Shown: piece after piece, positions 24,601-60,281 of the stretch
Position numbering within the stretch: the stretch's first letter is position 1
How the letters are laid out: every line of letters begins with the position of its first letter
NCBI GenBank assembly: GCA_004369045.1
Contig: ML213504.1
Location: forward strand, 1,846,894 to 1,910,893
DNA from: Heliocybe sulcata
Lineage: Eukaryota > Basidiomycota > Agaricomycetes > Gloeophyllales > Gloeophyllaceae
Direction: 5' to 3'
DNA length: 64,000 bases
Made by a program: the position numbers and the translations under genes
The notes under the pieces: generated by a model
What the model was told of the DNA's origin: nothing
Seen by the model: only the letters and a program-made list of their open reading frames with translations
Database searches by the model: none

Positions 24601-27600
24601 AGAAATCCGCATCCATGGGCGACATCAGGCATCTCGGCTGTAGGCAGTACTCGACAATTGCTAGCGACACCTCGGCCTTGCTCTTGGGACCTGCTGGACG
24701 CTTCAGAGTATGTCCTGCATGGATGACTAAGGTAGCTGCACTGACTCCGTGAATGTGCGAACCAATGCTGCTTCTCACGCGCAAGCCGTTTAAGCGTAAA
24801 GACCCGCGAGGCGGTTTGCTCTTTGAACTCCTGAGTGAGAGCATTCCCAAAGGCATTGTACCGGTCACGCTTGCTGCGATGGATCACCGCGGTAGCTCTC
24901 TTTGCTCGATCCGATGATCGGTCGGCTGCAGCGTATTTTGAGTCTTCTTGCCGACTCAACGTCCTTAGCGTAGCGCCTTCCTCGTCGTATCTTGTAGCAG
25001 GAGGTGACAGGTCATATGTGGATAGCTGCCAGAAAGTAAGGTAAAATGCCGGGCTGGCGAAGACGTGAATACAACACTATGAAGACCGTACGCAGGACCC
25101 ACGTACCCGAGAACTTGGCTCACTTGCGCAGGGAGTATCTTCTTGACATCATCAAATAGGGCATGCAATTCAGGGAGCCATGGCTGTGGTATTCCCGAGT
25201 CAGAAATCGCAAGGTTCAGCGCATGACTGCCATACCTCGCTGGGAAATGTCGCTGGGGCCAATGCTGACCCGGCGTCCGTTCCTTCCATTACAACATCGT
25301 CTGCCTTGGGAGCGGGCGTGCCAGATTTCCCTTCCACTTCGGACTCTGCCGTGGTGCCCGACTCTCCGGCGGCGGGAGAAGCAACTCGTGATGTCGTAGA
25401 GCTAGGTTCTCGCTTGGCCGTGAGAGCGGCCTTGAGACGCTTCTCCTGCTCTTCGCTCGCCCGGCGTTCCTTCTCTTGCATGGTTAGAGCAGCAGCCTAG
25501 GAGTACAAGCACTTGAGCATATAATGCATGGCAACGGCGAATCAGCGCACCAGGAGCTTTACTTGCAGGACCGGACGATAGATCTGCATACATATGGGCG
25601 GACATATTCCATAGGATTCGCCCAGGTCTGCCAAAGACGGTATGACCTTCGTGGCATAATCATTGGGTGAGACAACGGCGGGTGACGTAAGGAGGTCCAA
25701 GTACTGCAGCAAGACACCATGCGTCTGGAGACAAATGCTCAGGGCCTTAGATGCAAAACAGCCATTAGAATCGCTTACCGTATCAAACAACCCAGAGAGT
25801 GCTTTCAGGGGGGTATCCCTGCCAGCGAAAACACAAGATTGCCGCTGCTGCGCCACCTGAATTAACAAGGGCGTCGCCAGACTAGAGTCCAGCAAAGCCT
25901 TGCCGAGCCTCTGGGGACCCTTCAAGACAGCATCGCTCGGATCCAGACGTGCGCCTCTCGTGGACGACGCCACAGCTTCAATCCGCAGACCGGGTCCCCC
26001 TGCCATCGCCGCGATCTGCGACTCGTTCAAGTTGGGCAACGGCTCGATGCCCGCCATCTTCCAGATCAGCTCGCGCAGCACGACAATCTCCGCCGTCTCG
26101 CCGTTGAGAAGCTGATTGACAATGTACTTGAGAAGCGGCGTCAGATCCGCGCTGTACCTGCGGAACAGCATCCCGGTGAACGACGCGAGACCTATGTAAA
26201 CACGTCATGCCTGGTAAAGGACGAACTCGATGACTGCGACCCACTTTGCAACCAGTCCGCAGTGTTGACACCATCATCCTTGACTCTATTCTTGTTAGGA
26301 TTAGCCAAAGCGTCCAAGATAATATAGAGAAGGACATCGAAGCCCATAGTCGTGACATATCGCAGAGCCTGGATGACGACGCCCGCCAGGTTATCGTACG
26401 CCATGATCTGGTTCACCGCATTCGCAAAGAATATGCACGGATTCGAATGCGCAAGCTTCGCGACCGTCCCCGAAAGCGTGTCCACCGTATTATGCGAAAG
26501 CCGCCGGAGGATCCCCTTGGACTCACGATCAGCCTGCACCTGCCGCACGCGTAGCTCCGAATGCTCCCTGTACGTCTTCGTCTTCCACTCGCCGTACAGC
26601 TGCCACCTCTTCGTCGTCTCATAGTACCTCACAATATTCCAAATCTCCACCGTGCACACGGCGTTGCCTCGTATGAGCGGCAACGCAGGGAGCAAGTAGA
26701 GCCGACAAATCTTGAACCAAAATTTCCGTACAGGATGCTCCGGGTCCGGCTCGCCCACAGGCTTCTTCGTCTCCGGGTCAAGTTGCACCTGCCATCGTAT
26801 CTCTCGTAAGACGCTGCGACACTCCCTCGCCCAAGGGCATTAACACTAGTGTATTCACCGTAGTTGCCATATGGCTGCGCCCCAATCGCAAGAACTTGGT
26901 GAGGAACAGGTTGTCGCGGGAGATATGCACGCTGATATACCGCAGCAGAGGCTCCACCACATCCACCAAGTCGTCCAGAGTGGTAGCGAGTGGTATCCCA
27001 TCCGCCCACCAAGGATAGAAAAACACAAAATCCACCTGGTACGTCGGAGGTGGCGTCGGCGCCCAGAGCGTAATCTTCGGCGTCCGCTGCGGAGGCGTGA
27101 CAACGCGCCCAGCGTCCTTCGAAAACCGCATACTGGGCTGGTCGAAACCCGCCGGCCGCTCCCTCGCAAACACCGAGTCGTACAGCGGCGCAATCGCCAC
27201 CTTGAGGATACGGAGCATGAGATCCGCAAGCTCAGTATGCGCGTCAAACAGCCAAGGATAATGGTTCATGATGTTCATCGCGGGTCGCAGCGCACCCACG
27301 GCCAATAGCGCATCCAGAAACCGAGCCTTATAGTTCAGCACCGGCTTTGGCTCTGCCTTTTTCGTCTCCGCGACAGGTGCTGGCCGCGATTTACTTGACG
27401 AGGGCGCACTGCTAGACTCCAGGGGTGCTGCCAGAGCCAACTGACTAAGCCTCGCGCCAGAAATCCGAGCATCCACAGACGCAAGATATTCCTTATACGC
27501 CTTCTCCATCCCCTGCTCGTCATCGGGACCGATCTGCAAACACGAGCCAAATCAATCTACACCACCACCAACGCAAAAGCACAACGCACATGGGCATACA

Positions 27601-29577: not shown

Positions 29578-31356
29578 TCAATACCCATACCCCTTCCCTC
29601 CCATCCCCTGCGCGCTCCCAGGCGGGGTCACACTCATCCCCCTAACAGGCTGCCCCATCCCCCCATGCCCCGGCAAGCTCACATTCACCGACACAGGCTG
29701 CGTCTGCCCGTGCCCATTAACTTGCGACACCTGCGGCGCACCCACAATAACAGGCGCAACGCCCGCAGCCCCCACAAGCGCACTCAACCGCGCAATCTCC
29801 TCCCGACTGCTCACCAGCGCGCTCGTCAGCCTCTCATTCTCGTTGCTCAAGAACTCGACTTTGGCTTGGAGCTGCGCCAGCCACGCCTTCTTTCGTTGGC
29901 GGCACTTCAAGGCAGCTATAGTAGATCGACGATTAGATTCAAGTGCATCAATGATGTCAACAAGATACCTACCCTGCCGGTTCCGTTCCAAGAAGTTTCT
30001 CCGCTTCTCCTCCTCTGTCATTGGCTGCTTTTGACCTCGACCATTCTGGCCGCCGTTCTGCAACTGGGTGCCATTGGCCGAACCCATATCGTCGTCGTCA
30101 TCGTCCTCATCACCCAGATCAGTGCCCACGCTTTCGGCACGTCCGGTCCTGCTCAGTACGCTGGCACCCGTGTTGCTCCTCGTCCGCTTGCCCGGGCCCT
30201 TTTGGGGCTGCTGGGGTTGCGGTGTCGGCGACTCGTGTTGGTGGACGCTGGCGTCATACGACTTTCGCTTGGTCCCGCGCTTGCCACTGGCGCCGTTGAC
30301 GGGCGTGCCCTCCTGCTGTCTCTGCATCTCCTCCCGCTTTGTCAGCTCTTGATGGGCCTGACTAAGCAAGAAGAGGCCATTGGCGGCCGTGTTGGCGGCA
30401 TTCGCGGCCGAGTTGACGTAGTCGCCGTTGGCATTCTGCTGGGCGGCTTGCTGGTGAGATGGTATGTGCTGCATCGTGTATTGCTGCGGGATATGGCTTA
30501 TCGACAAGGGATGAGGATTATGAGCAGAGGTCGGTGACGTATGCGACTGCGTAGGGCTGGTGGAGGAGCTACCGTTTGGCTGGCCGTTTGTGGTAGCTGA
30601 TTGAGTTGAGTTGGAGCCGAGCGCGCCGGTGATAGCGCTTAGGGTGTTAGGCGTGATCGTGGGACCCGAGGCGACTCCACCTCCCGGAGCAGCTCCACTG
30701 CCCATCATGGCGAGGAAGGCAGCTGTTCCGGGGCTCGACGGAGGAAAGCTGACTGGTCCGCCCATGAGCGGCGTAAGGCCGGTCCCGGCGGGGGTCAGGC
30801 CGGTGCGAGGGGTCAAGCCAGTGCGAGGCGTAAGCCCAGTGCGGAAAGAGGCGGGATCAAAGGCAGGAGCGGTGGTGTTAGGGGGGTTGTTCTGAGGCCC
30901 AGCGAGCATGGCGGGGGAGAGCGGACCGGAGCGGAGGGAATTTGAGAAGGAAGACGAGTACCAGCCATAGGAGGGATCGGAGGGGGACGAGATGGCGGCG
31001 AGAGGAGGGAGGATGGGTTTGGGGGGAGTAGTGACTTTGTCGCCTGCATGGCCAGAGGCAGTAGAGGACCTCGACTGAGGCCTGTCAATGACGGTGCCGC
31101 GGTCGTCGACAGAGGAGGCTTCAGTGGGAGGACCTAGAGAGTCGCGACGAGTGGTTGCGGAGCGGATAGAGGTAGTGGAATGATGAGAGGAAGCGGAAAA
31201 CGATTGCTCAAAGGGGTTGGGCTCGAGGTCGAAAGCGCGGGGGCGGGGCGGGGGACGTAGAGGTTTGAAGTCTTTGCTGTCGTCGGGGTCATGTGTGGCT
31301 GCAGAAGTGGGGCGGAGCGGAGGAGAAGAGGCGGTGGGGGAAGGGTCGTCGGGCAT
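29578..31356 (-). CDS. Atf1/ATF-CREB-type bZIP transcription factor
   Basis: It is a nuclear DNA-binding protein of the fungal Atf1 group, which usually acts below stress MAP kinases at CRE-like sites. Two exons, 29973-31356 and 29578-29915, give 573 residues. The N-terminus is Pro/Ser-rich (FKPLRPPPRPRAFDLEPNPFEQSF, shown split: FKPLRPPPRPRAF then DLEPNPFEQSF). Between about residues 165 and 215 the motif GLTPRTGLTP is repeated, offering clustered TP sites. The bZIP sits near the C-terminus: RRNFLERNRQ joined to AALKCRQRKKAWLAQLQAKV, then leucine-heptad sequence. The 57-nt intron 29916-29972 splits the basic region, is a multiple of three and contains no stop, so unspliced RNA would encode a 19-residue insertion into the DNA-binding helix. 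The homologue could also be named atf21 or atfA; I leave the symbol open. Confidence 0.92.
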   Translation of the reverse strand: MPDDPSPTASSPPLRPTSAATHDPDDSKDFKPLRPPPRPRAFDLEPNPFEQSFSASSHHSTTSIRSATTRRDSLGPPTEASSVDDRGTVIDRPQSRSSTASGHAGDKVTTPPKPILPPLAAISSPSDPSYGWYSSSFSNSLRSGPLSPAMLAGPQNNPPNTTAPAFDPASFRTGLTPRTGLTPRTGLTPAGTGLTPLMGGPVSFPPSSPGTAAFLAMMGSGAAPGGGVASGPTITPNTLSAITGALGSNSTQSATTNGQPNGSSSTSPTQSHTSPTSAHNPHPLSISHIPQQYTMQHIPSHQQAAQQNANGDYVNSAANAANTAANGLFLLSQAHQELTKREEMQRQQEGTPVNGASGKRGTKRKSYDASVHQHESPTPQPQQPQKGPGKRTRSNTGASVLSRTGRAESVGTDLGDEDDDDDDMGSANGTQLQNGGQNGRGQKQPMTEEEKRRNFLERNRQGRYLVDIIDALESNRRSTIAALKCRQRKKAWLAQLQAKVEFLSNENERLTSALVSSREEIARLSALVGAAGVAPVIVGAPQVSQVNGHGQTQPVSVNVSLPGHGGMGQPVRGMSVTPPGSAQGMGGKGYGY

Positions 31357-34300
31357 AGCGTAGAGAGGACGTCAGTTGGGTGGTTGCGGGAAAAATGACG
31401 CTGGGCAGGGGGCGAGTCTGGTCTGCGCGCAATGACGAATACTGACGTAGCCTATATATACTGGCGGACTTTAAACCCTTATTCCATCAGTGCCTGGGCC
31501 CGGTCGCCCTGCCACCCGCCGGCCCACCTCCTACTGGTCGTCGCCGGTCTCTCCGGCGACACGCGCCGGCCCTTTATGACTAACTGCTCCACTTGCCCAG
31601 ACCTCCCCTATTTATAGTAGCACCCTTTCCGTTTATGACTTCCTATGCAGTTTCCTCGGTGAAGTGCATATACGCAGAATCGGATTTAATACTGCGCGGT
31701 GAATATATTCCGTGCAGCTGCTTCTGATACGTACCACGGCCCATTCCTGCCCATCCTCCCTGAGCCTAACTTATATCTCGTCCGGCCGGCCGGTTCCCTC
31801 CAAGGATATCCCGTAACACATCTCTGGCCCGCATTTGTTATACTGACTGCACCCATGACGCTCGCCGAGTAAACCTCGCCCGGCTCGTCCGCCTCAGTGT
31901 GAACTACAGATGCTCATCCCGAGAGTTTGTCGCTGCAAGTTCTAATCCTGCCTTCTGGCCACGGCCCAGACTATGCGATGCAGCAAACGTGCGGGTGCTG
32001 TCATACGCACGCATGTTCTGGTGGGAAGAACCCTCGGGACATGTACCGTCAGTAGATCTATCTCTGGAAGACTTCTACGCTCCGGCTATCGTTACTGTAT
32101 GCGATCTGACATTCACTGGACTGGCTACCGGATATCACAACGAAAATCAGTACAATCATTCAAACCGTCCGAACTACATCGGCGGGTTCTTCTTCCCATC
32201 TCTACACCGGTATTCGGATCGCAAGATCAATCTCAGACACGGACATCACCACCCCAGGCCCGCACTCCGAACTGCGCGTCGTCTGCTGACCACCAGGTGT
32301 AAAGGGTGCGACCAGCGTTGAATACTGTCATCGGGGAAGGGCTTGTGAAAGATGCACGATCGAGGCTTTTCCCCGCTTCCCCGCGCTGGTCATGCCGCTC
32401 GTGCTCTTCCTACCGCGACAAAGGAGATTGCCACCATCCGTTCCTCCCAAGATGTGATACATAGTCGCCGAGTCTCTTGCGGACTGGGGTTCCCCGCCTA
32501 TACCGCGCCAAGCCAGATTTTGATTCACAGACAACCACTATCCATGACGTTGACCCGCCTCCGGGGTACAGATGCAAGGCGCTCCAAAAGGCATGCAGCA
32601 CGATCGACGCATTTCCCCGCATCGGCCCTTAATCCAAAGATTTGCAGAAGTCAAGCGGGGGCATTGCTCTGAGCGGGTATTGACAGTTGCACACCAGTCA
32701 ACTGTTCAGGCAAGTTTCTCCGCCCCTCTAATCCCGCGGACGGCTGCCTAGTAATTTCAGACCGACGAGGGATCCACGTCGATCTTTCCGCGTTAATAGC
32801 TGGTACTACGCTGCAAGCACTCGTCAACAGAGGCTGCAATTGTTTATGATCTCTACCCATCAGAGCCACAGGTAAGTGTGTATACCCCCGACCCTGAACT
32901 GGCGTGATTTATCGCAACGTGCTCTTAGACCGCACCCCACTTCACATTGTAGCAGTCAAACGCCAGCGCTGAAGCATCCGACTACTAGGGCAGATTCCTA
33001 ACCCGGTCGGTGCAGATGTGCTATCTTTACGACCTTTAGCCCACCGGGCTCTAGGCTTTAATGGCCTTCTTTAACTTCACTAGCTTCCTGCGTTGCGTAC
33101 TTTGTTTTGACCACAGATTCGGATTCTGGGTCGAGAGACGATCGTCGAGCCCGGTTGTGTTCTCAAAACGGCTGATACGATATTCGATCCGGCGCGTGAT
33201 TGGTAGCTGGGTGAGCGTACAAATACCGGCTTGCTGTGAAGACATAGGTCCATGCATCTCGTCCCCCGCTCTATCTCGGGTCTTACGCCGCACATCGTCT
33301 TCATATCGCTCGTCACAGCTGTTGTCTCGGTATAGTGTAGGCATGCCCCATGCCTCACGCTCATCCGTGGCATCCCCATATTCTGTGTACTGGCTCGCGT
33401 CTATCATCTCACCGCAGGCCGGCTGCTGCTCCCCGCCACCCATCGAATTATACGGTCTTGCCCACCGCCGCTCCGCTCGAAAAAATCGATGTGCGGCACA
33501 GAATGCTTGCGCGCGCGGCGGTCTCCTCTGCTCTTCTGTTCGTTCCTTGAGGAGTCTGTCCCCGAGCGTCGAACTTGCTCTTACGAGACACCTGCCTGCC
33601 AGATAGATCAAGGACGGGCGTTCTTGCGACGTCGTGCTCCCTTTTCCGGAGTGTCTTGCCGCGTACACTGTCGATGACCTCTGAGAATGTCCTTCTGTTC
33701 CACCCTTCGTCGTCCTTGCGATGCGTCCCTTGCTCCTTGTGCACGCATGCATTGCGATTCACCTCTACTCCAGTCACGTCGCTGCCTCTAGGCTGAACGA
33801 TACCGTTGAGCCCGCATTGCGTTACTACTACGAGGCCTACCCCGCTAGTACTGCTATCCTGTCCTCTCAGGACTTCCATACAATGTACGCGTCGGCTGGC
33901 GATATTTTGTATGCCCGTTTAGTGGTGCACGAGACGTAGTGAACCTCATCTGAGGCGTTGTACGATACACGAATAGATCGGCCGTACTAATACTGCCCTG
34001 TTCAATATTCAATTCCGAATGGACGTTCATAGGGTATACAGGCCACGAAGGATTGTCATGCCGCATGTATGAACGGCTGTATGGCGCCGAAAGTATACTG
34101 GGCCGGGGCCTTGGGGAAGTGCGCCAACGCAGGGGCCCGACAGTTCTGATCAGATGCATCATTTCAAACTCTCTGAACACCCGCCCCGCCTTCGACGACC
34201 GGAACCGAAACTCTCGTGCCACAAGCCGAGTAGCAACTCCGGAAATGCCACGAAATGATATCAGATATAACTCACCGGTACCCATCACAGCTCGTGGTAT

Positions 34301-40328: not shown

Positions 40329-41998
40329 ATGCCGAACAGGTTCAGTAAGTGCGACGGTCATCTGTATTTGCTTTCCTGCTGAGCAAGGTCTAAAACTTCA
40401 CAGGATTGCTGCTCCATGGCAAAAAATGTGTGAGGAGTGAGGAGGGTCGACATCTCATCCCCCCGGCTGAGGCTTCCGTCAAGCCTGGCAGCAGGTTTCC
40501 CCTCACCTGGATCTTAACAGTCATTGGTTTGATCGTCAGTGCTGTCTTCAGCGTCGCATGTCTAGGCCTAGGGATTGTCATGCGTCACACAACCCTGCCT
40601 CTCCCGCTTCCTCCCCAGCTTGGTACCCGCTCCGACGGCAATATCAGGCTGCGCTTGCAGATTCCTTTCTTACGAGAGTTCATCCTCCTGTGTCTCAATC
40701 TCACCTTCGTCAAGTTCGCTGTGTGGTCCGTCGCCTCCGCGCACGAGACCACTCTCAAGTGGTCGCTAGCCAGAGAAAAAGATCATTGCTCCCAGCAACG
40801 TCGACTGGAGTTCAAGTCGAACCTCCGATTTTTACAGTCGTCGTACAAATGGTACTCGGCGAATGGCCTCATTGCGAATACTATCATGGCTGTGTGCTTG
40901 GCCGTCACATATGCGTCCAGCTCCATGATCCTACTGGGGGTCGAGGACACGACTCACGGATACGACACCGTCATGTCGTACCTTCCCCCGCTGGTTCTGG
41001 GTTTGGCTATCCTACTGCAGGTCATCATCGCCACCATCGGTTTGTGTACTACTGATGTCCCGACGTGGAGCCAATCTCCGCTTGCCACTGCAAGGGTGAT
41101 GGTCGAGAAAGGATACCTCACGAGGCGGCCTGGAAGGTGCATGCATTCGCTCTGGGACAGATATAACGACGGATCTGCGGAACCGAAGGAGAAACAGCCA
41201 ACAGCTTGGCATTCGCATCCGCAAGTCCGCACATTCGTGTTGGACATCTGGATGTCCGTCGGTGCGGGCTACTATTGGTGCTTCATCATGTGGGCCATGG
41301 CGAAGTCTAGCAGCCAAGCCACCTACTCCAGCCGTAATCCCATAATGGATTTTGGGTGGATGGGAGAGGCTCCGACATCAGGCATGCTATGGGGTCTAGG
41401 AGTTCTAGTGGGGTTCCAGGGAGGGATAATTACCAATGCCCTCACCATGACCGGGATGCTTGTTTCCGTCTCTCGAGATGAGACGCTTTGGAAAGAGGCC
41501 GGATCGGAGAAGGGAGCTGACGAGAACCCCGGTGTCATAAAGATGTTCTTCACAAACTGGCAGTGCCTTGCGGTGCACATTGCGGAACCTATCTTCCACT
41601 GGGCTTTCGGCCTCGCAGTCAATGTATATGCAGATGTAGGCTTTCGGGTTAAGCCTCTTCAGGTGCGTATTCAGGATCTATTGCTATCTCGATTTGCGCT
41701 GATGAATCACGTCTGGTAGGTTTTGTTTATCAGTGTCCTGGGCACTGCGGGAGTCGGACTCATAACTCTAGTCGCGCGCTTTCACCCAACAACTACCCGT
41801 CAGCCGTCCACGTATGGACACTTGCAGACACTGGTCGATCTCGTCGACGTCTGGGGCCCGAAGATTTATTGGGGACACAAACCAAATCAGCCTGGCTGGG
41901 AGGGGAAACTGCATGCCGGGACGAGCGCTAGTCAAAGCGACGTGCAGCGACCTGTACCGCTCGGGGAATATGGAGACAAGGCCGTACTTCGCTGTTGA
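40329..41998 (+). CDS. Multi-pass membrane protein of unknown function, copy 1
   Basis: I do not recognise a named family. Exons 40329-40344, 40404-41662 and 41720-41998 join in phase to 517 residues, starting MPNRFRLLLHGKK. The first coding exon is 16 nt. At least six hydrophobic spans are visible, including WILTVIGLIVSAVFSVACLG, LREFILLCLNLTFVKFAVW, YLPPLVLGLAILLQVIIATI and VLFISVLGTAGVGLITLVA. Charged loops carry SAHETTLKWSLARE, SNLRFLQSSYKWYSANG and TWSQSPLATARVMVEKG. The soluble tail begins YGHLQTLVDLVDVWGPKIYW, then GHK and HAGTS. The paralogue at 57502-59247 shares all these blocks in the same order. The protein is probably an integral membrane protein; whether it transports, senses or anchors is unknown. 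Confidence 0.85.
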
Positions 41999-44847: not shown

Positions 44848-46397
44848 TTAGCTCGCGAAGCCGTTCACGGTCATGTGCCCGTCGGGCGACGGGCCCGTGT
44901 ACGAGTTGCGCCCGCCGGGCGTCGAGTCCTGCACAACCGCGGCGGCGACGGTCGACTGTGCTGCTGCGGCAGAGACGGCTGATGCCTGGCTCGCAGCTGC
45001 AGCAGCTGCACCGGCGTTCCCAGTTGGCGCTGCCGCAGCGGCGGCCGCGGCGCCAGTTGCAGTGGCCTGGGCACTCGCGCTCGACATCAGGGAGCTAGCG
45101 TCTGCGGGGGAGATCGTCGTTGTGCTCGTGCCGCTCGTAGCAGAGGCGGCGGCGGCGGCAGTGCTGCTGCTGCCGGATGAGGAAGAGGCGGAGCCACTGG
45201 ATCCGGAGCTGGAGCTGGAGCTCGATGAGGAGCCGCTGGTCGCGAGCGAGCCGAGCATCTGGGGGTCCGTGTCGATGAAGGCCATTTGGGGACCGGCGAC
45301 GACGTTCACGGTTGCGCGCTCCACGACGTTGGCGAGGAGGGGCTGCGTGTCGTTGGTGATGTAGATCGCGACGGGCCCGTTGATACCCGAGGGAACTGTG
45401 CACTGGCTGAAGGGGAGGGTGACGGAGAAAGACATGTCGCCGGTGAGCATTTGGCAGCTCAGTTTCTGTAGGGATGTCCGTCAGTTGATTGTTCGTCATG
45501 TGTGCTCGGGAGAGAATTCTTACGCTGGTGTCGCTGGGGATGGCGTCGGACTTGAACGTCAGAGACGTGCCGGTTGTGACAGCACCGGTGTTTGTAATGG
45601 TCAACGGGGGGTTAGCTGTCCTGAGGTTAACGGGACCGTGCAAAATTGCTTGAATAATGAACGCACCGGAAACTCCGACATCACATCCGGAGATGAAGGG
45701 GCCAGCGATGGCAAGGACTTCCGAAGGGGAGAGGGCAAGATCGAACGCGTTAGGGATAGCGGTACCAGAGCCACTGAGAACGTTGAGGATGCTCTGATGG
45801 CGGGCCTCAACAGTCAAGATGCTGGCAGCCGCGGTCAAGAGGGTGCCATCGTCGACTAGGTGGGCAGCGCCAAGGTAAGCCGCGACACCGACGTTCTCGA
45901 CCACACGCGCTGTAGCAGCCATGGTCTTCACATCAGTGAGCGCACTGGAGAAGTCGAATTTGCAGTTGCTGATAGGGGAGGCGCCGAGGTCGGAAAGTGA
46001 TTTCTGTCAAAAGTGCGTTACGTCAGTGACTAGGACGCAGCCTTATTTCGAGCCTGCACGCACCTCGAGCGTCGTTGCGTGCGTCTTCTCGTCGGTAACG
46101 ATCGTGGAGAACTGCTGGATGGGAACCTGCGCTGCTGAGAAACCAGCTGTTGTGAAGTCGGATTCCTGGAACTTGGCAAGCGCCTGGGTGTAGAACTGCG
46201 TCTCCAGTTGTTCCAAGACATCAGCGAATTCTGGAAAACATGAGTCAATCCACGAAAGATGCTTGTAATCATTGGCACTCACGCAGGACCAGCGTGTCCG
46301 CCGCACTCGCGGCCCGTCTCGTTAATCTCAGAGGTACCGCAGATACCAGTGCGGGGGCCACAAGGGCAAGGATGGAAACAGATGAAGCGAAGCGCAT
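44848..46397 (-). CDS. Secreted ferritin-like domain protein (Rds1-related)
   Basis: It belongs to the fungal ferritin-like family that includes Rds1 stress-response proteins; the biochemical role is not established. Exons 46283-46397, 46064-46230, 45524-46003 and 44848-45465 give 459 residues. A signal peptide is evident (MRFASSVSILALVAPALVSA). The ferritin-like helices carry candidate iron ligands: EQLETQFY, VTDEKTHATTLE and EARHQSIL, with LVDDGTLLTAAASILTVEARH spread over two helices. A beta-rich domain follows (GDMSFSVTLPFSQCTVPSG). The last ~150 residues are an extreme Ser/Ala-rich low-complexity region (serine runs, then Ala/Thr runs), probably O-glycosylated, ending SPDGHMTVNGFAS. No hydrophobic C-terminal span exists, so a GPI anchor is unlikely. 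Introns are GT-AG, 52-60 nt. Confidence 0.9.
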
Positions 46398-47655: not shown

Positions 47656-49821
47656 TCAAAAGCTATCCTCCGCTATCCACCTCTGTATCATAGCCAGCGC
47701 TTCCGCCGGCTTATCATGAGGGACGTAAAATCCCCAGAGCACGCACGTCAGTCAATCCCAGCACCAGCGAGAAAGACGAGAAATACTCATCATATGCCCG
47801 GCGCCTCTTATCGTAGCAAAAGTCAACTTGCCCGCACTCTTCGTCTCCCCCGCCTTCGTCCCCTCCACTTGCCACTCCCTCCACTCCGCCCTTGCATACT
47901 CCTCCTTCCCCACCCACTCCAACCCATCCACCCACAGCTTATTCGCCACCCAATTGCACTGCCAATCGTATGTCCCCGCATATATTAATATCCTCACGCC
48001 TCTGTGCAGGAGACTCGCGACGTGATACTCGGTAGGGTGCGACCACTTGTCCATGTGCGAGACGAATAAACGGCCAACGTCGGACGAGCAGGCGGAGAAG
48101 TTGTTGGGGGAGGTCACGCCGAGTAGCGAGCGCGTGGAGGGTAGGTCGAGGTACGCCTTTATGACGCTGTTTTCGAGGTAGCAGAGGGAGTCGCCGAGGC
48201 ACATCTTCGGCCTCTGTTAGCCATCTGCCTTAGAACGACAAAGGAAAGTGTACCTTGGAAATATCGTAGACATTGCGGCCTGAGAAGACGCAGAATCTTC
48301 CTTCAGGTTGGAACTGGGATGAATACAAGGGGGCGCTTACCGCTAGCCCAGTACCCGCTACTCAGCTCGTTATCGCAAAAGGCGACGGCGGCTGAGCAAC
48401 CAAACTCCTCGAAGTTGTTGCCGCAATGCTTCTCCATCGCCTCCGTGCAGCGAGGCAGCTATATCATTGCAAGCAGCGGATATCAGGTTATTTTGCGGGC
48501 GAGCGCAATATAAGAGGGACGCATACAGCCTGCTTCATCCTCACACACTGACCGATCTTCTGAAACGGCACATCCAATGCCGCCTTACCACACTCAATTT
48601 CGTATCGGCCTTCGTACATCCTAAAAACGGTAGTCCCTATCAACTCAAGACAGCTCTGAAGATCTAAGAATATCGCCTACGTCGAAATACCAGTATTGCC
48701 ATTCCCAATCAGCACGCTCTTCAAATTGATAGTCTGGCGGCCTTCAGCTGCGGCGACTTTATTCTGGTCGACGACTTCGCTGGCGAATACAGGGAGGTAG
48801 CGGCCCTGTTACCTGCATCAGATCGGTTGGATGAACAGGACAGGAAAGGCCTCACGCCGTAGGACTCGCCAGACATGTGGAAGGGCCGCCCAGCGAACTG
48901 GTTGAACGTCTCGAAGAAAATGGAGATGAAGGCGTAGATGTTCTTGGCGGCATCTTCGGTCGTTTCGATGGTCTCGCCGTGGTCGGCGTATGAGAATCCG
49001 ACGCCAACTCTATGCGCGGTTCATCATAATCAAGAGACGCGATGGTGGAGAGGAGGTCTAGCTTACGGTTGGTCGAGGAAGAATATGTTTGCGTTTTCGT
49101 TCCAGGAGTATGGGTTCCAGACTGTGCCGTTTGAGGAGACGTTCTTCATGTCGATTTGGCATGGGCCTGTGGAATCAGTTTAGTTGGGAAGAGAGAGGTG
49201 GTTGGAGACGCGCGACTAGATACCTAGTTCCATGAGAAGGCCCATTGACGAGGAGCATCCGGGGCCTGTATGCGCCATCAAGTTCTGCACTAAAATGCTC
49301 AAGCCCGTCAAAGCCGACTACTGACCACCATTGATCCACATCATAACATCATCTTGCACGCAAACGGGATGTCAGACATCGTCGGGAATACCTTCCATAC
49401 GTTGGGCATACCTTCGTCCGGGTCATTGCGACTCTCGAAGAAATAAAAGAACAGGTGCTTCGCGCCGGAGTCCACATCCAGATACCCTGTATATACACTA
49501 GAGAACACCTCGGTCGGGCCTTGCGACGTCAAGCAATCAAAGGCACGCTTCTTACTTCACGGTAGGGTCACAGAACTCAGTCTTTTTCACCCTGACCTGG
49601 TGGGATGGAAACCGCGGATGGCTCAAGACTGTATACTCGTCCGAGGCGACTGAGGATAGGTGCAAGGTTGATGCATTCAGATTAAAGTTGGGATGCGCTC
49701 CCAGCCCGTTGCCAGTAGACGCGATTCCGCCGTCAAATGAGCTTGCAGTGGAGAACGTCTGCTGAGCGCCGGCTAGCACGCCAAGTAAAAGACCAAGCCC
49801 CAGTACATGTCTCAGCAGCAT
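47656..49821 (-). CDS. Serine carboxypeptidase (S10 family), secreted or vacuolar
   Basis: S10 carboxypeptidases remove C-terminal residues from peptides at acidic pH. The start MLLRHVLGLGLLLGVLAGAQ is a signal peptide. Exons rejoin to CDPTVNVYTGYLDVDSGAKH, then WINGGPGCSSSMGLLMELGP (oxyanion region), FFLDQPVGVGFSYAD and FHMSGESYGGRYLPVFASE. The catalytic Ser is in GESYG, the Asp in AGTYDWQCNW and the His in GAGHMVPHD, so the triad is complete. The last intron, 47725-47790 (66 nt), begins ATGAGT and ends TTTTAC: AT-AC boundaries exactly rejoin GAGHM to VPHDKPAEALAMIQRWIAED. No GT-AG pair there keeps the frame; reading through gives a stop after 12 codons. The final exon is 47656-47724. Several predicted N-glycosylation sites fit secretion. 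Divergent from NOP58 with 248 bp between. Confidence 0.92.
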
Positions 49822-50069: not shown

Positions 50070-52151
50070 ATGTTGGTGCTATACGAGACGCCCTTGGGGT
50101 TCTGTCTGTTCAAGGTCACGGACGCGGCGAAGATTACCAGTCCGGATTTATGGGAGGAGTTCGAGACGCCCGAGAGGGCTAATAAACTGTGAGCATACAG
50201 TTTAAATATCTGTAGAGCGTGTACTGGACTCATACCTTCTGTGCGTCCTTGTTGCGCGCAATGACAGATTAAAACTGAAAGCCTTGCACCGGTTCTCGTC
50301 GACCGCGACTGCCGTGGAGGAAGTCACTGCTATCCAGGAGGGTAAGATCGGCAAGGGCCTCAAAAAGTTCCTGGCAGAAGAGGTTGTGGAGAAGGGCAAG
50401 GGAAAAGAGTCGCTATATGTCGTTGAGGGCAAGCTCGGTATGTCCAGTCTGACTTCGTTAGATGCAGATAAAACTGACATCATCTTGGATCCCCTTGCGA
50501 ATGGACAATAGCCAGCTCGATAAAGAAAAAGCTCGGAATTACTGTGCAATCCGACAAGGAGTCTATGGAACTGTACCGCGGTATTCGGAATCAGATTGCG
50601 GCCTTGCTCGATGGACTGGACCCGAAGGATCTGGCTACCATGAGCTTGGGTCTATCCCACTCATTATCACGGTGGGCATGTTTTGCCTGTGGATACTCCC
50701 GTCTGTCCTGACTCGCCTTTCAGGTTCAAGCTCAAGTTCTCTCCGGACAAGGTCGATACCATGGTGGTCCAAGCCATTGCCCTTCTCGACGACCTGGACA
50801 AGGAGATCAACATTTACTCTATGCGGGTAAAGGTGTGTTGATGGCGTCTTCATAAACGTGGAGGCAGTAGTTGACATATCTTAGGAATGGTACGGCTGGC
50901 ATTTCCCTGAACTCGTCAAAATTATCACCGACAACCTCGCATACGCGAAAATTGTCCGACATATGGGTAAGCACTTCTCAGCTTACTCATTGCTCCGCGT
51001 GGCTCACCGTATCTACAGGCTTCCGTACCAACGCCGTAACAACAGACTTCGCCGCAATCCTCCCAGAAGACCTCGAAGCCACAGTCAAAGCCGCCGCTGA
51101 AATCTCCATGGGCACCGAGATCTCGGACTCGGACATCAGGCACATCCACTCGCTCTGCGACCAGGTCATCGCGATCTCGAGCTATCGCACACAGCTCGCG
51201 GAATACCTCCGCAACAGGATGAACGCTATTGCGCCAAATTTGACGGCGCTGGTTGGCGAGCTTGTTGGCGCGAGGTTGATCAGCCACGCTGGGAGTTTGC
51301 TGAACCTTGCGAAGCACCCAGCGAGTACGGTGCAGATCCTTGGAGCTGAGAAGGCTCTGTTTAGGGCATTGAAGACGAAGCATGATACGCCGAAGTATGG
51401 TTTGATATACCACGCCTCCCTCATCGGGCAGGCACCACCAAAGCTCAAGGGCAAGATGGCCCGTATGGTTGCCACGAAGGCTGCCTTGTCAATACGCGTC
51501 GACGCATTAACAGACGCAGATGGCAAGTCCGAGCCCGAAGCTCCCTCGATAGGTCTCGAGAACCGCGCGAAGCTTGAATCGCGGCTACGTGCGCTCGAGT
51601 ACTCTGGTGACCTGAGCGGCATGCGCCGGTTCGGCGGTGAGGGCAAGAAGCAGGCGAGGTTTGAGATGACGGGCGAGACGAAGACGTACAACACCACTGC
51701 AGATGCGGTGGACCTTGTTCCTGCGCAGAGGGAGCCGATGGAGGCGGCAGTAAAGGCGGTATTGGATGTGAAGGAGGAGAAGAGGAGAGCCAAGGAGGAG
51801 AGGAGAGCGAAGAAGAAGGCGGCGAAGGATGGTAAGGGGGAGAATGAGAATGGGATGGAGGTGGACGGGGAGGAGGACGAGGGCAAGGAGAGTAAGAAGG
51901 AGAAGAAGAGGAAGCGGAGAGAGAGTGAGGCGAATGGTATGGATGTGGATGAGAAGGTGAGATTCTGTGTTAGTCGCATGCTTTCGGCTGTTATCTGACC
52001 ACTAATCCTCTAGGATGCTACGGAGGAGACCGAGGCTGAGCGGAAAGCTCGCAAAAAGGCCAAAAAGGCCGAAAAGGCTGCGGCAGCAGCTGCTGCCGGG
52101 GAATCAGAAGAGTCGTCAAAGAAAAAGAAGAAGAAGGAGAAGAAGGATTAG
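50070..52151 (+). CDS. NOP58: Box C/D snoRNP core protein Nop58
   Basis: Nop58 is a nucleolar scaffold of box C/D snoRNPs that guide rRNA 2'-O-methylation with fibrillarin. Exons 50070-50188, 50268-50437, 50512-50671, 50724-50832, 50885-50966, 51019-51956 and 52014-52151 join in phase to 571 residues. The start [20 protein letters not shown] is characteristic. The NOSIC/Nop domain includes [16 protein letters not shown], then [20 protein letters not shown] and [20 protein letters not shown], with [18 protein letters not shown]. The C-terminus is a long Lys/Glu-rich tail with KKAEKAA and [10 protein letters not shown], typical of Nop58 and nucleolar localisation. All introns are GT-AG; the start was fixed by homology and is the only ATG that fits. 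Confidence 0.97.
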
Positions 52152-57501: not shown

Positions 57502-59247
57502 TCAACAGTCGTCACAATTTTTATCTCCGTACCACACTTCCTCGCGCACTGGGGTGACATCCTCTTTGGTGTCGCTTGTCCCCGCGTGCGCAATCTGATT
57601 TGGTCCGATGCGCTTATGTCCCCAGTACATTTTGGGATGCCATTCATCAACCAGGTCCACTAATGTCTGCAGGTGACCGAAGGCGGTAGGTTGCGGACTC
57701 TTGTGTCTGATGTGGCGAGAACCAATACTGACTACGATAACGATGAATAATCCCAATGAACAAAGACCCAGCGCCCGATAAAGATGTCAAACGATATGTC
57801 AAACGATATCGTTGTGAAGCCGCGGTAGAGTACTCACATATTTTGGTCTGAGTAGAAGTCCAGCATCGGCATCCAAGCTTAGCGCCATCCCGAAAAACCA
57901 GTGTAATGTTGGTTCAGCAATATGGACTGTGATAGTCTGCCAATTCGCAAACAAGGTCTTCAAAGGACCAGGAGACTCGTCTGAGCCGCGCTCTGATGCC
58001 GCCTCCTTCCACCAATTTTCATCGCGAGTAAGGCTGGTAAGCGTGTTGGACATGGTGAAGCCCGCAGTGAGTATGCATCCCTGCATGGCGACTATGACCA
58101 TCAATGCCGAGAGTAAACCGGAGATGGACGCCTCATTTGTCCACCTGATCTGCATGGCACCCAACGTAGCCCCTCCAGTGCGAGATGCCATGACGGCCAC
58201 GAGGAGACCGGACAAGTAGTAGCCAGTGCCCACGAAAAACCAGGGGGAAAAGACGAATGTCCCAATCTGCGGGTGCCGTTCCCACCCGGAATGTCGGATT
58301 AGTTTTGGTTTCAGAGGCCTCCGAATATGTTCGCCCGCTACGGAATGCATACATCGTCCTCTGCGCTTCTTCAGCACTCCTGCCTCGACCATTGTCCGGG
58401 CAGTAGCTAGAGGCGACTGGCTCCAGATAGGCACGGTGGTCGTGAGAAGACCTATTGTCCCGATGATGACCTGCAACAAAATAGCCGTGCCTAACACGAA
58501 TGGCGGTAGGGAGGATATGACAGCAGTGGACTGCTCGTTCGCGCCCTCTTCCGCGTCAGCTAAGAGCATCATGGAGCTGGCAGCGTACGTCACTACTAGA
58601 CAAGATGCCATGGTAGCGTTGGCGAATATGCCATTGGCTGAATACCATCTGCGGGAGGCTTGCAGGAAACGAAGGTTCGAGTTGTACTGCAAGCGAGGCC
58701 CGCCTAACCTGTCCGTCTCGGCGGCTAGTGTCCACCTCAGAGTGGTCTCATGAGCGGAACCAGCGGACCATACGGCAAGCTTAACGAAGGCGAGGTTAAG
58801 GCAGAGAAGCAGAAGCTCTCGCATGAATGGAAACGGCAGGTGGAGTCGGAGGTTTCCATTACATTGGTCGACGTATCCTCCCCATGCAAGAAGAGAATGC
58901 GGTGGCTTAAGGGTTGCAACCCCGAGTGATATGCAAGCGACTCCAAAGAGGCCGCTGATGACCAAGCCCGCAACAGAGATGATACGGGTTAATGGGAAGT
59001 TTGAACACGGTTTGAAAAGCGCTCTGCCGCCGGCCAGCTCCATTGTATCCATCTGATCGTCCATGGACGAGCTACAATAAAGAGATTCGGTTTGTACGGC
59101 CATGTCAACCGTTTCTCGTTCATCAGGCAGTCCTAGAATCGCCTGCAACTCAGCGCTCGTCGAGAATCTCGAACCTAGGGACTTGAATCTCGGACCTAGG
59201 GACTTACGGACTTTGCTGGACATCTTGAAGATGGAGGTGCTCTCCAT
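57502..59247 (-). CDS. Multi-pass membrane protein of unknown function, copy 2
   Basis: A paralogue of the gene at 40329-41998, on the opposite strand. The large exon from 59247 (or another ATG at 59322 or 59223) to about 57834 matches it block by block: RELLLLCLNLAFVKLAVW, SAHETTLRWTLAAETD, SNLRFLQASRRWYSANG, PIWSQSPLATARTMVEAG and HIAEPTLHWFFGMAL. The last exon (to 57502) encodes the same tail, FGHLQTLVDLVDEWHPKMYW then GHK. The intron between them starts GTGAGT at about 57836, but no AG lies where the acceptor should be; instead there is a 12-bp tandem repeat. The final junction is therefore unresolved. An N-terminal 7-residue repeat (SLGPRFK, SLGSRFS) comes from a 21-bp duplication. Function unknown; at least six membrane spans. 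Confidence 0.78.
59163..59204 (+). repeat. 21-bp tandem duplication in coding sequence
   Basis: Two 21-bp units (59163-59183, 59184-59204) differ at one base. They add a second seven-residue unit to the N-terminus of membrane-protein copy 2 without breaking the frame. Copy 1 lacks this segment. Confidence 0.85.
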
Positions 59248-60281
59248 AAGCCCAACGAGAAGGGATTTATAGGGCCAGAAACGCAGGTTCACTGAACATC
59301 TCTGTTGCGACTCTGGAGGCATATTGTCTTTGAGGCACTGCTGGTATCCCTAGGCAGTTACTTCGGATGCGAGTAGATGCTGGATTCCGATGTCTCTTTT
59401 GTTACAGCCTGAAGAGGAACACGGACGCGCGCGGGACATGAGTGCAGCAAGCGGTCTCATGGTACCGGATGCGGAGCCCGTGCTTATGACAGACTTTTCC
59501 CCTTGACGGTCTGTCTTCCCAGCTCGAGCGTCGTGAAGCCCAACTAGGAAGTAATCCATGATACTTCGAGTCTGGACTCAAGCGCGGATATTCCACATTT
59601 CATCCACGCAGGCCAGTAGTCTGGTACGGCTTGACAGAATGAATCAAGTGATTATAACAGCCTTAGTCGACCAGAATACTGATCCGGGACCATGTGAGGC
59701 AAGTATCAGTGATGCCCGTGATGTCGACGAGCCCTGTGGTCGACATTAGGAGGCTGGGGTCGGAAGATCATCGTTCGTGATGGAGGATGGAGGAACCGTG
59801 AAGTTTTCGAACAGCAGAAGATTGCAACAGGCGAAAATGTTGTAGAGTGTATAGGCAAAGGCATGGCAGATCCAGGCTGAATATCCCATCCACGAAGTTG
59901 TCAGGAAGGAGCAGTTACCTGTGGCTATGCGCCTAAGTGCAGGTCTCTCTTGATATTGCCTTCGAGTCTTCTGATGCTCATGTCCAACCTAAGTCGGGCT
60001 GCCTTTGGCCAACTATCGAATCAGAGGCGTTGAGAAGACCGGCTACAACAGAGTCGATGATCTGATATATGCCTCGGGCTTGCAGAATTACAGCTCTGTA
60101 GACCTAGTAAGGCTTGCAGACATGGAAGTCAGACGAAGTACTTGCGAAGTACTGTGCTTTAAGTTGCTCTCCAAGTGAGGGATTGGCTGAGGCATTGCGT
60201 GTGGCATCCACGTGGTCTCAGATTCGATCGGTTAGATTGCACTTCTGATTCAGAGTCGACCCTGCCTCTCACCTTAACGCG
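59248..60281. other. Intergenic region between membrane-protein copy 2 and CTU1
   Basis: About 1 kb between divergent genes. It may include up to 75 bp of extra coding sequence if copy 2 starts at 59322. Other frames (for example 59350-59559, minus) show no family character. Promoters of both genes should lie here. Confidence 0.4.

Follow-up and report, generated by a model that had tools for sequence, protein, structure and literature searches.

A putative U2-type AT-AC intron, with GT-AG as its probable ancestral form, at the active-site histidine of a Heliocybe sulcata serine carboxypeptidase

Introduction

How can a gene keep the active site of its product intact when the intron interrupting it appears to begin with AT and end with AC, and how could such ends have arisen? 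The question is raised by a stretch of 64,000 nucleotides from the basidiomycete Heliocybe sulcata (the window, whose first letter is position 1), in which a sequence-only reading had described a 66-nt segment with AT-AC boundaries next to the catalytic histidine of a serine carboxypeptidase. The U2-type spliceosome has been said to recognise AT-AC introns poorly, and a table in the same source, in the parts considered here, gives U2-type AT-AC introns as 0% in Saccharomyces cerevisiae, Schizosaccharomyces pombe and Caenorhabditis elegans (PMC7367187). As regards their origin, section 16 of PMC2831892 puts forward U12-type AT-AC introns as the ancestors of existing U2-type ones and states that an end switch within the U2 class would require simultaneous mutations. 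The Heliocybe locus bears on this proposal because sister genes in the same genome carry an intron at the same site.

Results

The carboxypeptidase gene and its product

The assignment to the serine carboxypeptidases was borne out by Pfam, as the spliced product matches PF00450 with 363.6 bits over profile positions 12-419 of 420 and contains both the serine context GESYGG and the histidine context GAGHMVP. Yeast CPY matches it with E=2.2e-98 and aligns without a gap over the AT-AC junction, which places this junction in the context of the active-site histidine, as had been claimed. The reading frame is otherwise intact across the 12 exons, the ten remaining introns are all GT-AG (10/10, 49-68 nt long), and a 301-base query spanning the site has a single match in the 31.6-Mb genome. 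The best reading of the sequence is that the product would be a normal carboxypeptidase with its histidine in the usual context. Coordinates of the gene, its splice signals and its neighbours are given in Table 1. Two similar-looking, membrane-protein-like ORFs (40394-41719, plus strand, and 57799-59349, minus strand) flank the carboxypeptidase gene; neither has a Pfam match at E<=0.01. A basidiomycete source is in keeping with 28 matches to DUF6533, a family typical of basidiomycetes, and with the abundance of short introns.

Table 1 Features of the window (positions counted from its first letter) and introns near the corresponding site in distant S10 genes of the genome.
Feature	Position	Strand	Description	Basis
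THOC2	26778-27551	minus		Pfam
bZIP protein with Aft1_HRA domain	29578-31371	minus		Pfam
Ferritin_2 protein	45095-46006	minus		Pfam
S10 serine carboxypeptidase (CPY-like) gene	47656..49821	minus	506 codons, 12 exons	gene model, splice alignment
Exon 12	47656..47724	minus	VPHDKPAEALAMIQRWIAEDSF and stop	gene model
Alternative 64-nt GT-AG excision	47683..47746	minus	GTGCGT...ATACAG, downstream of read-through stop
Alternative 87-nt GT-AG excision	47700..47786	minus	donor GTATTT, in frame, VPHDKPAEA lost
AT-AC intron	47725..47790	minus	66 nt, phase 0, after codon 484	excision enumeration, spliced alignment
Acceptor TTTTAC/G	47725..47730	minus	scores above 35/58 GT-AG introns outside the dinucleotide
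Candidate branch site CTGAC	47747..47751	minus	branch A at 47748, 23 nt from intron end
Overlapping candidate branch motif TTGAC	A at 47752	minus
Donor G/ATGAGT	47785..47791	minus	U2-type donor save A at +1; scores above 47/58 GT-AG introns outside the dinucleotide
Exon 11	47791..48204	minus	ends ...TIRGAGHM with active-site His	gene model
Nop-domain protein, presumably Nop58-like	50871-51998	plus		Pfam
L002 (distant S10)	codon 482, phase 2		intron
L013/L027 gene (distant S10)	codon 483, phase 1		intron
L066 (distant S10)	one base before site		intron, phase 2 of Met codon (L007 numbering)
L003/L028 gene (distant S10)			no intron near site
L068, L069, L070 (distant S10)			no intron near site; low-scoring models

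Position and ends of the intron

On the minus strand, positions 47790..47725 and their flanks read ...GGGCATATG/ATGAGTATTTC...GGGGATTTTAC/GTCCCTCATGAT... (slashes mark the cuts), so that the segment starts with ATGAGT and ends with TTTTAC. The segment is as it had been described: excision of these 66 nt rejoins GAGHM to VPHDKP exactly, and reading through it gives GAGHMMSISRLSRWCWD followed by a stop. The predicted mRNA junction is CATATG joined to GTCCCTCA.

We enumerated 1172 excisions around the site, with GT-AG, GC-AG, AT-AC, AT-AG, GA-CG or GA-AG ends. Only two of these, both AT-AC, have GAGHM and KPAEALAMIQRW together in frame; the second, with its donor at +6 (ATTTCT), leaves two extra residues, and the family motif GHMVPxDxP is exactly regained only by 47790..47725. 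As the bases at the cuts (G/A and C/G) permit no shifted cut that would give the same mRNA, this placement is unique.

The same ends were picked by a purpose-written spliced protein-to-DNA aligner, guided in turn by four of the five sister proteins described below (L008, whose model contains stops, was omitted). The AT-AC ends at 47790..47725 were chosen in 4/4 guided runs with default penalties, in 4/4 when AT-AC was penalised like any odd pair and in 4/4 with flat penalties allowing any dinucleotide, although the flat-penalty runs also shifted several ordinary introns of the gene to odd ends. Enumeration and alignment thus agree with the ends first proposed. On poorly matching distant S10 genes the aligner placed doubtful odd introns, including one AT-AC intron (in L069); the assignment here rests on the sharply conserved residues encoded on either side of this one junction. 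When the aligner was restricted to GT-AG and GC-AG it put no intron at the site in 4/4 runs and lost 29-32 points, which suggests that a gene predictor with the same restriction would misplace the C-terminus of the enzyme.

Could a canonical intron be used instead? The sequence-only reading held that no usable AG acceptor exists. Within the 66 nt this is correct, the sole AG being the one in the donor ATGAGT, but it fails beyond the segment, where the 87-nt GT-AG excision 47786..47700 stays in frame to the normal stop and would give GAGHMMT-LAMIQRWIAEDSF. Its signals are poor: the donor lacks a G at +5 and scores above only 4 of 58 GT-AG introns, the acceptor scores above 6/58, and CTGAC would lie 48 nt from the intron end. 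The resulting protein scores 26.6 Pfam bits below the AT-AC-spliced product. The 64-nt excision 47746..47683 has a stronger donor (above 29/58; acceptor above 15/58), but as it follows the read-through stop its product would still be truncated, and both forms lose the conserved VPHDKP. We regard use of either shifted GT-AG intron as very unlikely.

Alternatively, the segment might be spliced poorly or not at all, the main product being the retained form that ends in GAGHMMSISRLSRWCWD, that is, a truncated enzyme or the product of a dying gene. The retained frame does keep the histidine and stops shortly after it, and the AT-AC gene has a long end branch in the gene tree of the S10 sisters (0.86), which makes relaxed constraint possible. 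However, retention costs VPxDxP and the C-terminal segment and lowers the Pfam score by 27.7 bits relative to the spliced product. In exon 12, moreover, identity to the sisters (9-10 of 17-20 residues, 50-59%) is at the level of the preceding exons from codon 83 onwards (211-222 of 392-394, 54-56%). The exon therefore shows no sign of decay, although a very recent change would be invisible in such a comparison. A dead donor would also leave the exact A and C pair, in an intron whose other signals are kept, unexplained. Retention thus appears unlikely, if less so than a shifted intron.

Splice signals and spliceosome type

Outside the terminal dinucleotides, the signals of the AT-AC intron were scored against the 58 GT-AG introns of six S10 genes, the AT-AC gene and its five sisters (Table 1). 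Of these 58 introns, 38 have a YTRAY motif in the range of 5-45 nt from their end, at a median distance of 15.5 nt; three of the five sister introns at the AT-AC site lack it.

The AT-AC ends would in themselves suit a U12-type intron, removed by the minor spliceosome. Against this, the donor matches the U12 consensus ATATCCTT (RTATCCTT) at 3/8 positions, as expected from the earlier view that it is not of U12 type, and the best match in the intron to the U12-type branch consensus, TTCCTTRAC, is 6/9. Searches of the genome for minor spliceosomal RNAs covered three of the four, U6atac, U12 and U11 (the fourth being U4atac); of the 1127, 520 and 1199 first-look candidates, respectively, the best 46, 42 and 39 were scored. 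Among the candidates scored there was no match to U12 at E<=10 and none to U11 at E<=1, and the 14 matches to U6atac all fell below the cut-off of 33 (best 17.1 bits), four of them being the U6 genes themselves. U6, found in four copies at 89.2 bits, was the sole positive control of these searches. Our null result agrees with published surveys which, in the parts considered here, found neither Ascomycota nor Basidiomycota to have convincing minor introns (PMC10639083, PMC2846911). With the donor, the branch and the searches for U6atac, U12 and U11 all against it, a U12-type origin was rejected, and we hold it to be scarcely credible.

Sister genes and direction of change

Five sister genes on contig C19 (L004, L005, L007, L008 and L009) have an intron at codon 484 in phase 0, and in 5/5 it has the form atg/GT...AG, with a length of 51-61 nt. 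Across the six S10 genes the aligner found 58 GT-AG introns and one AT-AC intron, a count that leans towards GT-AG owing to the lower penalty for these ends. The sister models were built with the protein of the AT-AC gene as guide, so that the comparisons in the two directions are not fully independent. From the five sisters and the general GT-AG rule we infer that the ancestral state at the site was probably GT-AG.

On C19, at about 341-384 kb, at least five S10 carboxypeptidase genes, the sisters among them, lie clustered on both strands. The spliced model of L008 (C19:374762-378250) contains in-frame stops near codons 344-359, which makes its inner introns less sure; L008 may be a damaged copy. 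In the gene tree of the sisters, in which one of five inner branches is supported, L008 groups with L005 at full support. A further locus chosen for a GAGHL motif near the cluster (L065) contains only the start of the L009 gene.

Seven distant S10 genes have a model reaching the histidine region (that of L067 did not, and it was excluded), and none of the seven has an intron at codon 484 in phase 0. Three (L002, L013/L027 and L066) have an intron at most 8 bases upstream of the site, and four have none there. Counting the C19 genes, introns thus occur at four different places within about 8 bases of the His-Met codons, which perhaps reflects intron sliding or independent gains. In L003 (C2:140345-143842) the aligner placed one GC-AG intron.

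Only the first and last intron bases separate the AT-AC ends from the GT-AG rule of the sisters, which is how an ordinary intron misassembled or misread at either end, or at both, would look. Two independent errors would, however, have had to fall on both paired end bases and to yield a tolerated pair, in a gene free of frame errors elsewhere, and we consider such an error highly improbable, even more so than a shifted intron.

We searched the genome for similarly designed introns with the pattern GATRAGT-N25..50-CTRAC-N8..28-TACG, which is narrow and leaves other AT-AC designs outside its scope. It matched 17 times (10 forward, 7 reverse) as against 40 times for the reversed control, and thus showed no excess. 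The 17 loci yielded 15 joined frames having 20 or more residues ahead of the junction and 12 or more behind it, namely that of the known intron and 14 others. Nine of the 14 were searched against Pfam with 70 residues a side (one of the other five is identical to a searched frame), and none reached the curated cut-off; two matches of low significance, with E 0.019 and 0.051, look like chance. Among the frames searched, coding support was therefore found only for the intron at 47725..47790.

Discussion

Taken together, the sequence evidence suggests, with a probability of roughly 0.8, that the AT-AC intron is of U2 type and is removed by the major spliceosome. It probably arose from a GT-AG intron by changes at its two end bases. 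The ancestral intron would have changed G to A at its first base and G to C at its last. The earlier remark that the AC end needs more than a G-to-A change at the donor is right, and the best explanation is a matching second change at the last base. U1 and U6 may still bind the donor through the exon G at -1 and the intron bases TGAGT, and the major spliceosome would then remove an intron whose first and last bases are A and C rather than G and G.

In the second step of splicing, after branching, the first and last bases of the intron are in contact with each other. Yeast intron mutants at these two positions were reportedly described by Parker and Siliciano in 1993. In the parts of PMC6726248 considered here, AT-AC is reported to come second only to GT-AG in efficiency among the end combinations of a mutated yeast intron. 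Given this order of efficiency and the contact between the two bases, the two changes would compensate for each other.

AT-AC introns that do not depend on the minor spliceosome have precedents, each cited here from the parts of the source that concern them. Saccharomyces, a fungus without the minor spliceosome, has AT-AC junctions spliced by the major spliceosome, one in SUT635 and, as an alternative junction, one in RPL30 (PMC6726248). The yeast examples thus comprise a protointron, this alternative junction and mutants made in the laboratory, whereas the Heliocybe intron is a coding intron in which only the AT-AC ends restore the protein exactly. Human SCN4A intron 21, a U2-type (type II) AT-AC intron, shares with it the AT-AC ends and a U2-like donor with G at +5, and is removed by the major spliceosome (PMC2831892), as the Heliocybe intron probably is. 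U12-type AT-AC introns are the proposed ancestors of the sodium channel introns (PMC2831892); in contrast, the sisters of the Heliocybe gene have GT-AG introns with U2-like donors, and its genome yielded no minor snRNA among the U6atac, U12 and U11 searched.

Elsewhere, AT-AC ends were reported for 69 of 14305 junctions in transcripts of Trichoderma longibrachiatum (PMC4324775), among the rarer junction types of Fusarium graminearum, in a study that used Sanger sequencing to check seven genes having non-canonical sites (PMC3577648), for two introns listed as 'other AT-AC' in the basidiomycete Phakopsora pachyrhizi (PMC2846911) and for 59 introns of C. elegans, at least 42 of which the authors consider real (PMC3033335). 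A table in PMC7072748 gives 0.019% AT-AC in the row above plants, which by the order of the paper's other table would be fungi. The Fusarium, Trichoderma, Phakopsora and C. elegans introns, observed in transcripts, are of the same rare non-U12 kind, in lineages taken to lack U12 splicing, but a paralogue comparison like the one in Heliocybe was not found in the accessible parts of these reports. Nor did the open-licence literature, to the extent of its accessible parts, contain a direct switch from GT-AG to AT-AC shown by paralogues. U2-type AT-AC introns are thus already known, fungi included, and what the Heliocybe case most likely adds is an unusually clean sister comparison.

The contrast between the AT-AC gene and its GT-AG sisters speaks for a direct end switch within the U2 class having occurred. 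We lean, with some reserve, towards a compensatory double change that became fixed and led directly from GT-AG to AT-AC in a genome without the minor spliceosome, which would make U12-type ancestry unnecessary. If this is true, the Heliocybe intron would be the natural counterpart of the yeast double mutant in the first and last bases. With GT-AG in five sisters and AT-AC in the sixth gene, at one site in one genome, direct switching of intron ends would become testable in nature, and the contact of the first with the last base in a natural gene.
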